A program made the position numbers and the translations under genes. A stretch of DNA of 64,000 nt. It comes from Dirofilaria immitis (taxonomy: Eukaryota; Nematoda; Chromadorea; Rhabditida; Onchocercidae). The notes under the pieces were generated by a model. That model was given only the letters and a program-made list of their open reading frames with translations. It did no database searches and had not been told where the DNA came from. The stretch covers positions 10,959,501 to 11,023,500 of the forward strand of contig JAKNDB010000068.1 of assembly GCA_024305405.1 (NCBI GenBank). Direction: 5' to 3'. Position 1 is the stretch's first letter. Every line of letters starts with the position of its first letter. Positions 14,494 through 58,700 of the stretch are shown here, piece by piece.

Positions 14494-16828
14494 GTGCAGA
14501 TGTATTGCTTCTCTCTTTGCTTAGGCCTGCCTAACAACCGTTCTTTGTGCATTTTCTTTTGCTTTTGATTGTTTGCTGTCTCTCCTGACTAATCATAGTG
14601 AGTATTTTTTACTTTCGCATCTTTCTTAGCATTATTATTATCTTTCTCCTCGCCTATTAAATGCGTTCGCGTTTCTCTGCTCCCGAATACCATATTTATT
14701 GTTAACGTAATTTTTCTATAGCATGAATTCGTCATTTTTCGTTGTATTAGCTGATTGAATGATATTTATTCCCTCATATTATTTAATTGTTTTGCCAATT
14801 CATAATCCTAAAATTCTATTTTCTCTGAATCCCAGATTGCTTGACTTTTAAAGGATTATAAAGGAAATTTTGAATAAGTTGTCTCTGCTTCTCTATAAAC
14901 TTTTACTCCAAAAACGTAGCGGTAAAACAAAAAAAAAAGATAATTATGGGGTACAATTTAAACAATCTTTATACTACACCAAATACCTTATTTTATTCTA
15001 ATTCGAATAGCACTAAACAACAATTCATCATTTGAACTAAAAACATTCAATGGATCTACGGCACTTTTCAGTCGACATATTGAACTGCTGCAATTGGCCA
15101 CGGGCCGTGCTGTATTTTTCTCTGTATTTATCAATACATCGAACATTTTGCAATAAACGTCTGAGTTTCTCCCTCATGTCAGCGCGGATTAATATCATCT
15201 TATCATTTTTTTGTTTACTGAAGTATATGTTCCAAAAGATTTTATGTGGTATATATTCGCGATTTTTTTTTGAAAATAAAGCTTACTCGTTTGCTTTAAT
15301 TTTCTCTCCTTTTGTACTCTAATAGTAATATTTGCACAGTTCAAAAATACATAAAAAGAATTTAATTATGGAGCAAATTCGAGATCAATCTTAACTGTTA
15401 AAACAATTTAGTGAATGACACGAAACCTGTAATTAATACTATAATATTATTGCACGACTTTAAGGGACAATCATGTCAGTCATGCCGAATCAATGAATAA
15501 AAGAAAAAGCTGAAGACTTTACTCCTCCTAAATAAATCACCTTTATTTATTTCCACAACTTATTATTGTACCTTCTCACAACACTCTTTCAGTCATGATG
15601 GATATGAATATTGGAGATAATATTCGTATTCGTTTATCCTTATATTCGTGCCATAGATTAGATGTTTTCTCTTATCTTCATTGTTGATTTTTTTTTTTAT
15701 TTTTGAAAAAATATTTTTTTTTTTATTTTTTTTTAAATTTATTTTTGCACATAAATGTGGTAGTATTCTAATCCGGAAGAATGATAATTAAATTATATAA
15801 AAATGATTGCGTTATATTTACTAAATTGTTATTTTGAAGATTTTTCGTTGCCAAACTAAAAGAAATAAGTGCTGATTACGATGAATACAATGAGGACATG
15901 ATACTTTGCTGATGCTAAATATCAATCGATGATTTCAGAATTGAAACATAAAATAAATGTACAAATGAGAAGCATATTTAGCCCAGCATTATTATTCAGA
16001 TGGAAGAAAAAAGACTGTAGCACACAGACCGGTAGAAACGGGTAATTATTATTCAGTGAATTATGGTCGAGTCAAGCGGAACGAAATTGCTTTGAGAAAG
16101 TAAAATAACTTATGTTGTGATGATATCTTATGTTGTATCGCTTTGAATGATTTTTTTTTTTGCCAGTTTTCGATGGCATAAGCAGATATGTAAACAAGTT
16201 CATCGAAAAATAATTAAAGAAGTGAGTGCAAACGAGCAAACAAGTAAATAAATGAATAGAGGAATGGGTAATTTACTTCACAAGCAAAAACGGAAAAATG
16301 AGGAAGCATATAAGCTGATATTTATAAATCAAAATAATAGGCAAACATAATATATTTTTTTATTTGGTTTTTTATTGTTTTCTTGGATTTTTTTCTTAGT
16401 CTTATTTTAACTTTCATTTGAAGTGAGAGAAAAAAATATGTCATAATCATACTTCTTTTTAAGAATGTTTCATCATTGCTTAGAGAGTTCAATTTGAATG
16501 CCATTTCTGTACTCTGAATAGTTTTTTTTAAATCATCTTATGCAAAAAAATTTGAAAGAAATTGAGAAAGTGGTGGAAACTGAATCTAATCGAACATCAT
16601 TAAATTTTGGAGAAAATGAGAAGCCAACAGTATTATTCGAAGAACAATTTCCAAAAGAGAACTTATTCAAGGAAAATTTCGAAAATTACGCAATTTCTAA
16701 ACTTAAGAAACGATTATTTCAAATAATTTTATCGGATGGATAAATCTGTTGAAAGTTTTCAGCTTTCTGACGACACATAATGAATTCTTTTATTTTCTCG
16801 AGAAATTTTTGATAATCATTTCATATTG

Positions 16829-34224: not shown

Positions 34225-37200
34225 ATGCCGGAAGTAGATAATGTTCGTGTGGTGGTACGTTGTAGACCTCTGAGTCATACGGAACGTGAACAAGGACATC
34301 GGAAAATCGTATCTGTGGACAGCGCTGGCAACTCCGTCTCTGTCACCAATCCGAATAATGATCAGGTAGCTTAAGCATAAATTAAGTTCAGTTTGCTGTA
34401 ACCTACTAAACTAGTTGTTCTGGATATCATGATTGTGAAGTCTTTAAGTTTTTTAGAATTTATTGAGAAGTAAACAGGAATCAATTAACAAGTAGTAGAT
34501 TTATTGGGGCAAATTTTATATAATATAGTATGCAATGATGCCCACACTGAATGCCCACATTGAATTTGTGGATAGTTTTTGAGTTAAAACAATTAAATAA
34601 CCTCTCTAAATATGTTTTTTTTATTCTGGTAATTCAAAATCAATTATTCTATCTGCCATGAAGCTTTCCTCAGGAACCACCTCGCATTTTTACGTTCGAT
34701 GCTGTGTTTGGAGAAGATAGCGACCAATTTAGTGTTTATAACATCGCTGCAAGACACATTGTTGACAATGTACTGAAAGGATATAATGGTTAGTTAATTA
34801 GTGGTATCTTAAATTTAGTTCTGGAAAGCATTAACTGGTTATGACATATTCAAGAGGATGATAAAGCTGATCAAGATCTAGCATAGTGAGTGATTGGTAC
34901 AGAACTAAATATAGATATGAACTTGACTTTCAAGAGTTCATGATTTTCCTTATTGGTGCTGAGGCTATTAGTGAAGCGATCAGAATGTCCGCAGAGGTGT
35001 TTCATAACTTACGCAATATTCTTAAGAAAAAAAGTTACAGCACAAATGTAGGAGACGAAGGTGGTTTTGCACCAAACATTGAAAGCACCGAGGAAGTACT
35101 TGATTTAATCATATACGCTATAGAATCTTCTGGTTATTCAATATATAATCACTTTGCATTAGGTCTTGATGTTGCTCAGGTGGGAATTGAATCACTGTAT
35201 TATGTTCAGTTTTCAACAAAGTAATGGAATCATAAGGTAATGAATATTTCCACTATTCAAGAAAAATTCAAAGTAATTTTTTTCTGATGCTTGTTTCATT
35301 CTGATTTTATTTAGGTACTATTCTTGCATATGGACAGACTGGCACTGGAAAGACCTTTACAATGTTAGGAAGTAATAATTATCCTGGAATAATCCCGAAT
35401 TCATTTGTGCATATTTTCGACTACATAGCAAAATGTCAACAGGATAAAACATTTCTTGTCCGAGTTTCGTATTTGGAAATTTACAATGAAGAGATCCGGG
35501 ATTTATTGGCCAAAAATCCGATACATGGTCTTGAAATTAAGGTAGAAATGATATTGTGATTTATAGATTATAATGGAGATGATAATGATGTAGAATAATT
35601 CAAGGACATCATTTATTTCATTTTTCATTCTAATCGCTGATGCATGTGTAACTAAATTTTGAGATTTTTTTCAATTCTTACCATTGGCTCTTTGAGCGGT
35701 TTATAAATTAAACAAGAGCTTAGTAACTTTATGACTGATACTTTCTGGCTTATTTTTGAATTCATATATTCGATGTACGATAGTTGCAAAATATTCATCT
35801 GATATTAAAGTGATTCTAGGGACTGAACAGTATATTAGCTTTTCTTGCTCTCTTTTAATTTAGTTTCCTCTTATTTAGTTATGTTTTAGGAACGACCAGA
35901 CATTGGAGTTTATGTAAAAGATCTATCAAGCGTCACCGTGTCCGGTGCAGATCATATGGAACGCATAATGCAATTCGGGAACAATTATAGGTATGTTATT
36001 ATTTTTCAGACAAATGAAAAATAATTTAGGGAATTGGAAATAAAAAATCATTTTGTGGAATAGATACGAGCTGAATAAACTCGAGAATTAAAAAAATTTC
36101 AAAGTGTAAAATTTTGTAGACCTTACTGATTAGGAATCTTTTCGTTAGCTTTTTTATTTTTCTTATTGTAGATCAACAGGCGCGACGAAGATGAATATAG
36201 ATAGTTCACGTTCTCATGCGTTATTTACAGTAACGATCGAATGTAGCGAGAAAATTGGTGATCGTTGCCATATTACGCAAGGGAAGCTACAACTTGTCGA
36301 TTTAGCTATAAGTTTTTTGTTTTTTGTTTTTCTTTTAATACATAGTCATTCAGGACAATGCATCTGTAAGTTAATATCAATAAAGCAAAATAAATAGTGT
36401 CATAAATTGGATTTGAGAAGGAGTTTTTGCGCTACTTTAATCTATTATAAATTTTTATTAGAAATTCATGTTGCATTAAAAATAATACCATTGAAAATAT
36501 CCTTTTCAGCGTTAATTGTTTCAATTTTTTGATTAATTTCATACATCGCATGACAATCGCAACGTCATAATTTAGGGTAGTGAGAGACAAGCGAAGAGTG
36601 GTACCAGTGGAAATCGATTAAAAGAAGCAGCTCGTATCAATTTGTCCCTTTCTTCTCTCGGTAATGTCATTAGTGCTTTGGTTGATTCGAAAACGATTCA
36701 TATTCCATATAGAAATTCCAAACTTACACGATTGCTTCAGGATTCTTTAGGTGGTAATTCGAAGACTGTCATGGTAAGTAATTGTGAGATAACTTGACTT
36801 AATGGTATTTATGCGAATTATCCAGAATAATGCGTTTTCTATAAAGTTGCATACCAGAATTTCAAAACTTCAGATCCTTAAATGAAGGGAATTTCAATTC
36901 AGAAAGTTCGGAACCTGAATTTATTTTTGGAAGTAGTCTGTGAAATTTCTCAGCTTTTTTCCTTTCATTTCAGTTTGCAAATATTGGTCCAGCTTCTTAT
37001 AATTATGATGAAACGGTTTCCACTCTGAGATATGCAAATCGTGCTAAAAGTATTCAAAATGTGGTTCGAATTAATGAGGACCCAAAAGATGCACTGTTGC
37101 GGAAATTCCATTTAGAAATTGAACATCTTAAACGGTTGCTTGAAAAAGGTTGGCAAAAATATTTATGGATATACTGAGTTGTCTTTATTATATTTTTACT

Positions 37201-55789: not shown

Positions 55790-58700
55790 TTCTTGACTTA
55801 CGTCTTGGCTTATGATCTGGTTGTATCCTAGATTGAAACCAAGCTATCAAATAGATCTTATTTAATTGTTTCAATTTATTATTTCCTTTTATCGACCTAA
55901 TAGCATTCAATTTTAACTTTTTATGCAGGTAATCTTTCAATGAGGAGTATTATCGTAACATGTATGTATCGCATGAAAATTTTTACATTAAATTCATGAG
56001 CATTGTACGAGACTTGTGTGATTTTGAAAAAGCATTGTAATTAATTGACTTTCTATGCCAATATTTAACTATTCCTGATGAAAATTTGGATTTTCCATAT
56101 CACCATATTTTGTACTGCTGATTTTACATGTTTGCAAATGTCTTAACAACAAGCAAATATTATGATCTATTATATAATCAGATGAGAGGCAAGATGTCAT
56201 CAGTGAAATACCGTAAACCTAGTAAAAATAGCCTTCATTATATTGAAACAAGTTTAAAAAAAGAAGTACTATAAAGTCTATGAGGATTACGAAATCCTTA
56301 ACTGCTTGGTTAGATGAAATAGAATAAAATGTTATGAAAATAAGAATTGCAAGCAAACACCTGTTTAAAAGATTGATTTATTATTTAGTCTCTGTTATCT
56401 AGATCTCCTGATATTATTTATTCTTTCCGTATCACTTTTTTCAAAAAAGAGGGCAAGAAAAAAATGGTCGAAATTCCAAATCAACCTGCTGATCTATTGT
56501 ATATTGTTATTTCAGCAAATAATGGTGGACAAAAAAGCGAACAGAAAATACAATAACCTCGATCTTTGATTAGCTGACCCATAATCTAAAATATTATATA
56601 TTGTTGTTGCAGGATTTCGTAACTATTTCGAGTGATCAAAGAAATATTTGAGAAATGAATTTTTATGTTCTCATAATAGGATATGTGCTAATATGACAAA
56701 TCTTTTATTAAACGCTTATTAAACGGTAAATTAGAGTAGATCGATGAGTATTATAGATGTATGAAATGGGAAGACAGCTTACGTTTGACATCTTATTATT
56801 ATTCTCCATGCTACAATTAAAGAGAATCAGACGTTGTGAAAGTAATGTTAAGTTCGTGAGGTTTGATTTAATGGGACTTGAAATGGATGAAATCGTTTTT
56901 ATAGCTGTTGTTTGAATCTTTGTTGTGGATGTTTGTGTCACTTGGGATAGGGTTTCTTCTTGGGTTAGTGATTGAATGAATCACCGTTTTGATAATTGAC
57001 ATGTTGATAAATTTGTTGGTAATAGATCAAATTCAAACTTTACAATTTCTTTGAAGATGGATAATAAGAAGAGAAATTATTTGATCCTTAATCTTACTAT
57101 GGATAATGTGACTGAAATTTTTCGGAGCAATAAAGGCAATGGCAATTACACAAATGGCTGCTCTTTGAGCAACAGTATTATAATTCTTATAGGCAAGATC
57201 ATAAATCAGTTAATTTATTTAAAAGATATTCTTTGCTTTAGCATTTTATATTACAAGCAAAATTCGGATTTCCGAACAGTACCTAATAAATTTTTTGAAT
57301 TTTCTGACTTAACAGATTCTATTATAGAACAGTAATTCACTTGAAAACCAAAAAAAAAACCACTATATTCTAGATTTCCTCTTGAATTTGAATATTTTCC
57401 TCTCGCAAAATTGGTTTAGGAGAACCTGAAACTTTTTCTGCACTCACTTTCCTTTTAAATTTATTATTTACCAAATTAATTCTGTTTTGTTTACATTTTC
57501 TTCAACTTAATATACCGAAAAAATATTTGAAGATTATTTAAAAAGTCTTGTAGTAGCATTACTTTCTAAATATCTTGATTATTTGTATAAATCTATATGT
57601 AGGGTTAAATTGGTTATAAGACTTTGCGAAAGCGCAGTTATTTAGCGAAGTATTTTATTGCTGTAGCTTCATGTTTTGCACCTTCTACTATACTACCTAC
57701 GTCTTTCATCCGCTTTTTTACTGCAATGTTTACACTGTCTATTTCCGCTTGTTTGTCCTATAACCATTGCGTCGGATTTCACATGCTTACATATTTTGGG
57801 AGCGAAAATCAGATCTTCAATTTTTTTGTTGTTGCTGTATGCTTTGTCACTTGGCTCATTTCTTCCACTTTTACTGTATAATTATTGTTTTCTAGAATTA
57901 AAACCCCACCGACAACATTTTTGATTTGATATTTTGCATTTTGTTGAAAGGATTCATAAATAAGACGTAAACAAATATTTTCAATATAATTCATTAGAAA
58001 TGATTTTTTTGATACTCAATTGTTTAAGTTCTCGCCTAAATCCTTTTCCATCTCTTCAATGATTCATCGATTTTGTTCGATTGTCCGGTAAACCATTCAC
58101 TCATAATTTTCTTACCTTTCTAACGATCCAATCCAAATATCAAACTTGTTAACGCAACATTCACTTTGAATTTTACTTTAAAACAAAGTGACGGAAGTCG
58201 AAATAATTATTTTTCATTCAAAATTCCTTCTCCCGTTTCATGTCCTCTTTTATTCGTAATTAGAAGCGAAAATGCAGAATTATAAGCACAAAATGTTCCC
58301 ATCCAGCTTTATCTGAATTTTGATCCAATTAATACCATTATAATCAATCAGTCCTGGCAATTCTTATTTGTCTTTTATACCTAGTTCTTCTACCATATTT
58401 TATTTAATTCATCAGCAGAACATTCTTTACCTATTATGTAAAAGTTAAATTTTAATTCCTCAAATTCCTATTTTTAGAAAAAAGACATCTACAATGTAAG
58501 AAAGATGCCATCGATATTCAAAGTAAAAATTCTAATACTTCGCGATCGTTTCTGAGAAATATTTACTCTTTTAACCATAAAATCATAATTAATAAGTAGC
58601 TTACTGTCAACCCTTTCTCCTTTGTTTTCTAGCCGACCTGTCTCACCTTTTTCCATCTTCAATTGTATGCTGTATTCTTATCTGTTAATCTGAGCAGTTC

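Follow-up and report, generated by a model that had tools for sequence, protein, structure and literature searches.

How does a piece of a bacterial glycolytic gene come to lie in an intron of a kinesin gene of the heartworm Dirofilaria immitis, and does it do anything there? The question was raised by a preliminary description of a window of 64,000 nucleotides (the whole stretch of DNA analysed here, on contig C10 of assembly GCA_024305405.1), which had claimed that the middle part of an enolase sits on the sense strand of an intron of a KIF3A-type kinesin gene, that it came from a Wolbachia-type endosymbiont and that both the insertion and its open frame are unusual.

Here we establish the Wolbachia origin of the piece, its place between kinesin exons, the existence of a separate native enolase and the presence of more scraps of the same bacterial gene. 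We hold with high confidence that the piece is an inert nuclear Wolbachia transfer (nuwt), namely a short enolase fragment of a supergroup C Wolbachia related to wDimm, lodged in a kinesin-2 intron of a D. immitis germline chromosome. The coordinates of all features are collected in Table 1.

Table 1. Features of the enolase locus, other Wolbachia-derived pieces in the window and two further enolase scraps (window positions unless a contig is named)
Feature	Position	Strand	Basis and remarks
nuwt, middle piece of Wolbachia enolase	34917..35176	+	codons 178-263 out of 442 in the wDimm frame; DNA match, Pfam Enolase_C, TIGR01060, tree
Stop-to-stop open frame enclosing the enolase piece	34871..35224	+	117 codons
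Host intron carrying the nuwt	34789..35314	+	phase 1, GT...AG; sequence and splice junction check
Upstream kinesin-2 motor-domain exon, ending at the splice donor	34674..34788	+	Pfam Kinesin E 7e-7; PDB kinesin-2 matches after splicing; start as in the preliminary description
Downstream kinesin-2 motor-domain exon with P-loop	35315..35541	+	Pfam Kinesin E 1e-27; PDB kinesin-2 matches; end as in the preliminary description
nuwt, ribonuclease D piece	15327..15426	+	78% to wDimm; TIGR01388 rnd 270.8 bits, below the 298.95-bit cut-off
nuwt covering the start of a dCTP deaminase gene	15430..15520	+	83% to wDimm; gene by TIGR02274
nuwt, purH piece	57698..57963	-	74% to wDimm; gene by NF002049 and TIGR00355
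Wolbachia enolase scrap	C60:72289-72578		96% to wDimm; frameshift and stop codons
Wolbachia enolase scrap	C26:3163401-3163998		82% to wDimm; frameshifts and stops

The enolase piece and its place in the kinesin-2 gene

The open frame matches Pfam Enolase_C over its residues 17-103 (E 1.9e-28) and TIGR01060 (eno) over the same residues (E 2.8e-31), the 108.6 bits of the latter staying under the cut-off of 300 for whole proteins, which is normal for a fragment; the first 15 and the last 15 codons lie outside the homology. Judged by these profile scores, the enolase match is far beyond chance. Together with the DNA match to wDimm they bear out the claim of an enolase middle piece on the sense strand of the intron, and the figure of about 86 open homologous codons given in the preliminary description was correct. 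The sense orientation by itself would be a one-in-two event. The closest relative in a protein search was a 202-residue enolase piece (P0001; 81% identity over 68% of the query), and a phage collection searched with the intron region 34700-35400 gave no match.

The intron opens with GT at 34789-34790 and closes with AG at 35313-35314, and its matches to the rest of the genome are confined to the enolase part. The upstream exon scores 28.9 bits against Pfam Kinesin, slightly below the cut-off of 29.3. Once spliced, the two flanking exons find KIF3B, KIF3C and kinesin-2 at the top among the best 60 of 155 PDB sequences. These matches of the spliced exons support a kinesin-2 as the host gene and do not separate KIF3A from KIF3B.

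The assembly that we analysed comprises 65 contigs and 86,694,620 bases. It is tabulated elsewhere with an N50 of 4,253,153 and 86,813,779 bp, about 119 kb more than counted here (PMC12693587), and its original description gives 110 contigs, 87,899,012 bp and an N50 of 3,687,191 (PMC9179477); the described assembly and the deposited one thus seem not to be identical. It was built from Nanopore reads, and recognised Wolbachia contigs were removed, according to its description, only after assembly (PMC9179477); a read of live Wolbachia could therefore have been joined into a worm contig. Against such a chimera or contamination stands the position of the piece, deep inside a contig of 12.5 Mb and flanked on both sides by kinesin-2 exons that splice cleanly. 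Moreover, at 13 of its 260 positions the base is not that of wDimm, whereas 31 of the at least 178 nuclear pieces described below are 98-100% identical to wDimm. An intact Wolbachia enolase was looked for in the worm assembly and not found, which also speaks against a joined read; the reported removal of the Wolbachia contigs explains its absence (PMC9179477). We regard an assembly artefact as very improbable.

Wolbachia origin and other enolase copies

Over its 260 bp the piece is 95% identical at the DNA level to wDimm 908042-908301, with 13 substitutions and no indels. wDimm is the D. immitis symbiont, a member of supergroup C with a genome of 920,122 bp (PMC8116671). Matches were found in 39 of 41 genomes of the genus Wolbachia, the best being wDimm (G016) with 94% amino acid identity. 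One of the genomes (G018) holds, besides a stop-free enolase, a second enolase-like stretch with stops (contig C6, 107813-108076; 57%), which is perhaps a pseudogene or a host nuwt within that assembly.

We computed a maximum-likelihood tree from 34 rows of DNA sequence, made up of three nuclear pieces (window, C60 and C26) and 31 Wolbachia rows, nematode enolase being absent; the Wolbachia rows are 30 extracted loci plus L001 (31 of the 39 matching genomes), two of them long-branched, and of the alignment columns 43% are filled in the window row and 48% in the C60 row. In the tree wDimm groups with the window and C60 pieces (97/82), C26 joins them (98/91) and all fall inside a six-row clade (100/99). 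Within this tree without a nematode row, the comparison with Wolbachia proposed in the preliminary description places the fragment inside the Wolbachia enolases, beside wDimm, and takes the place of the loop-length argument made there. Sequence identity and tree position support as its source a Wolbachia of supergroup C that is a near relative of today's symbiont. The order in which the window piece, the C60 piece and wDimm branch lacks firm support (98/77), and because of this the suggestion that the piece could date the symbiosis survives only in a weak form.

The worm has an enolase of its own, encoded in several exons on contig C17. Enolases of many organisms, gamma-enolase included, align over the region of the piece, as would be expected also of a degenerate copy of this native gene. 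The identities are far apart, however: the piece shares 94% of its amino acids with wDimm, and with the C17 gene 52%, over 46 residues; its DNA identity to Wolbachia is 95%, and it lies inside the Wolbachia tree, which has no nematode row. A native origin is accordingly next to inconceivable, and transfer from a Wolbachia-type endosymbiont into the worm nucleus, as first proposed, is borne out by the wDimm identity, the tree group and the distinct native enolase. As a separate observation, the native enolase gene on C17 is closely followed, on its downstream side, by a thrS nuwt (L088:6730-6911; 81%).

Contigs C60 and C26 each carry a further scrap of a Wolbachia enolase. The frameshift of the C60 scrap falls within a stretch of A and may be an artefact of Nanopore sequencing. 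The window and C60 pieces are 94% identical to each other, and the starts of the window, C60 and C26 pieces fall within 11 bp on wDimm coordinates, which raises an alternative that differs from our explanation in route only: the window piece would be a nuwt, but one that was copied from the C60 scrap inside the worm genome and not transferred independently. Against this route, the two pieces have no flanks in common and their right ends are about 42 bp apart. C60 groups, if weakly (98/77), with wDimm rather than with the window piece. Window and C60 agree against wDimm at only three sites, and at two of these the same base is found in C26 and L095, so that those two are changes on the wDimm side. 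Given the unshared flanks, the tree position and the few shared differences, we judged this route the less likely one, and rate it as unlikely. The nuwt on C60 (L086:3897-4579) is itself chimeric, its enolase piece adjoining a piece of a DEAD-box RNA helicase gene about 198 kb away in wDimm, with a 24-base tandem repeat seen by eye at the junction.

Open frame, constraint and function

The frame was called unusual for having stayed open. We placed 13 random substitutions, without indels, on the wDimm piece, and the frame remained open in 59-83% of runs, depending on the transition bias. An open frame is what one would expect of a piece that has diverged by 5% and has no indels (P 0.59-0.83), and its unusual character is not supported.

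Nine of the 13 differences from wDimm are synonymous, leaving four residue changes, and simulated sets of 13 random substitutions gave 9-10 residue changes on average, with five or fewer at P = 0.002-0.017. This synonymous excess speaks against pure neutral drift straight from wDimm. At five synonymous sites (34957, 34981, 34996, 35008 and 35014) the window carries the commonest base of 30 other Wolbachia, which leads us to infer that some of the divergence had already accumulated in bacteria when the transfer took place. C60 and C26 carry the wDimm base at three of the five, where repeated change is possible. The synonymous excess relative to wDimm, which might signal selective constraint of the kind that a functional transfer would show, is present but may predate the transfer. 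Two replacements fit a loss of constraint: Pro to Leu at 34950, where the base is identical in 30 of 30 other Wolbachia enolases, and Gly to Ser at 35033, where it is identical in 29 of 30. Selection on a nuclear copy of one fifth of the enzyme is unlikely.

The piece is both truncated, with 86 of 442 codons, and degraded, with a replacement at an invariant base. Judged from its sequence, it cannot work as an enolase, given this length and the absence of the two catalytic lysines (K345 and K396 in yeast). Its most plausible history begins with a germline break inside the kinesin-2 intron, during the repair of which degraded symbiont DNA would have been captured by end-joining. From then on it would be transcribed solely within the kinesin pre-mRNA, splicing would discard it along with the intron, and it would have had no function since its entry.

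A different outcome, in which the piece acts as a cryptic or poison exon in some kinesin-2 transcripts or is kept by selection, seems very improbable to us. There are 433 AG-GT combinations that share 60 bp or more with the piece, of which 25 keep the kinesin frame free of stops, all of them in the enolase frame, and the synonymous excess relative to wDimm would agree with selection. On the other side, the best acceptor among the 25 (TTTCAAG) agrees with the splice-site consensus at 5 of 7 positions, and the best donors do so at 5 of 8. The true sites score just 5 and 6, and because of this the scan does not discriminate real sites from chance ones. Inclusion would also put residues just ahead of the motor-domain P-loop, and the frame is without most of the enzyme. 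That the piece at times enters kinesin-2 mRNA, as an in-frame or a frame-breaking exon, we likewise hold to be doubtful in the extreme; if it were true, the fossil of a symbiont glycolytic gene would now tune the expression of a worm motor gene. We retain the reading of the piece as an inert nuwt.

Nuclear Wolbachia DNA in the assembly and the window

How exceptional is such an insertion? We compared 100 kb of wDimm, taken as six stretches, with the assembly and found at least 178 nuclear pieces of 31-770 bp and 71-100% identity, a number that includes some copies duplicated inside the worm genome. The stretches gave 22, 21, 24, 30, at least 43 and 38 matches; two of the six had been chosen with a nuclear piece already known in them, and for one stretch 40 of 55 candidates were scored. 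Identity is 95% or more in 53 pieces, 90-94% in 36 and below 90% in 89. Extrapolation from the 100 kb gives about 1,640 pieces in the assembly, or 1.2 per 64 kb; the window itself holds four at three places. The claim that the insertion is unusual is not supported by this abundance.

Four nuclear piece ends fall within 11 bp at wDimm 908042-908053 (the starts of the C10, C26 and C60 pieces and the end of one on C21). A breakpoint test on the first three stretches, run after this cluster had been noticed (67 rows, 62 used, five duplicate-looking ones dropped), gave P 0.003 for the largest cluster within 11 bp and P 0.02 for close pairs; at 5 and 20 bp the values were 0.10 and 0.32 for pairs and 0.04 and 0.02 for clusters. 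Repeated on the three further stretches (111 rows, 108 used, three duplicates dropped), it showed no excess, with 10 pairs no more than 11 bp apart, where 9.5 were expected, and a largest cluster of two. We rejected a general model of breakpoint hot spots, the excess being absent from these further stretches, and the local cluster may be due to chance.

Nuwts are already well known in filariae. For the same D. immitis assembly 483 merged regions are reported, of which 85% derive from supergroup C and 12% from F (Vancaester et al. 2025, PMC12693587), a count obtained with merging and a stricter cut-off than ours; like the pieces found here, those described in that paper are fragments dispersed through nuclear DNA and for the most part come from supergroup C (PMC12693587). 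As far as the published account goes, the enolase piece very probably belongs to this set of 483 (PMC12693587), and possibly the locus already stands in a supplementary nuwt list. The words intron and enolase are absent from the main text of that paper (PMC12693587), and enolase goes unmentioned in the main texts of PMC12693587, PMC2882956, PMC3849323 and PMC3458923. Its location inside an intron of a kinesin-2 gene may have gone unremarked until now.

Comparable pieces are described from other hosts. In Onchocerca volvulus 531 putative nuwts, mostly fragmented, were judged largely nonfunctional (PMC5310847); ours resembles them in these respects, though the host species differs (PMC5310847). 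In Brugia malayi, nuwts that stem from separate regions of the Wolbachia genome lie side by side, with some transcription (PMC3849323), and pieces from distant genome parts also adjoin in D. immitis, again a different host (PMC3849323); Brugia nuwts are reported to be longer on average (PMC12693587). Nuwts are also reported from Wolbachia-free filarial species (PMC3458923). In two of these, Acanthocheilonema viteae and Onchocerca flexuosa, fragments average 174 and 159 bp at 81% and 78% identity (McNulty et al. 2010, PMC2882956). Those fragments are similar in size to ours and likewise lie in nuclear DNA, but the symbiont has been lost there and retained in D. immitis, and identity here is 95% (PMC2882956).

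The enolase nuwt alone leaves knowledge of Wolbachia transfer unchanged. It serves as an example of the high density at which symbiont DNA is strewn through the heartworm genome, a density that matters for PCR tests based on Wolbachia genes and for assembly cleaning, and it offers a marker to seek in other Dirofilaria.

The window has other nuwts as well. The ribonuclease D and dCTP deaminase pieces adjoin at 15327-15520 although about 187 kb apart in wDimm, and so form a chimeric nuwt; the purH nuwt is old. The window has 18 stop-to-stop frames with 100 codons or more, and Pfam searches of 10 of them revealed one further domain, a UAA transporter.
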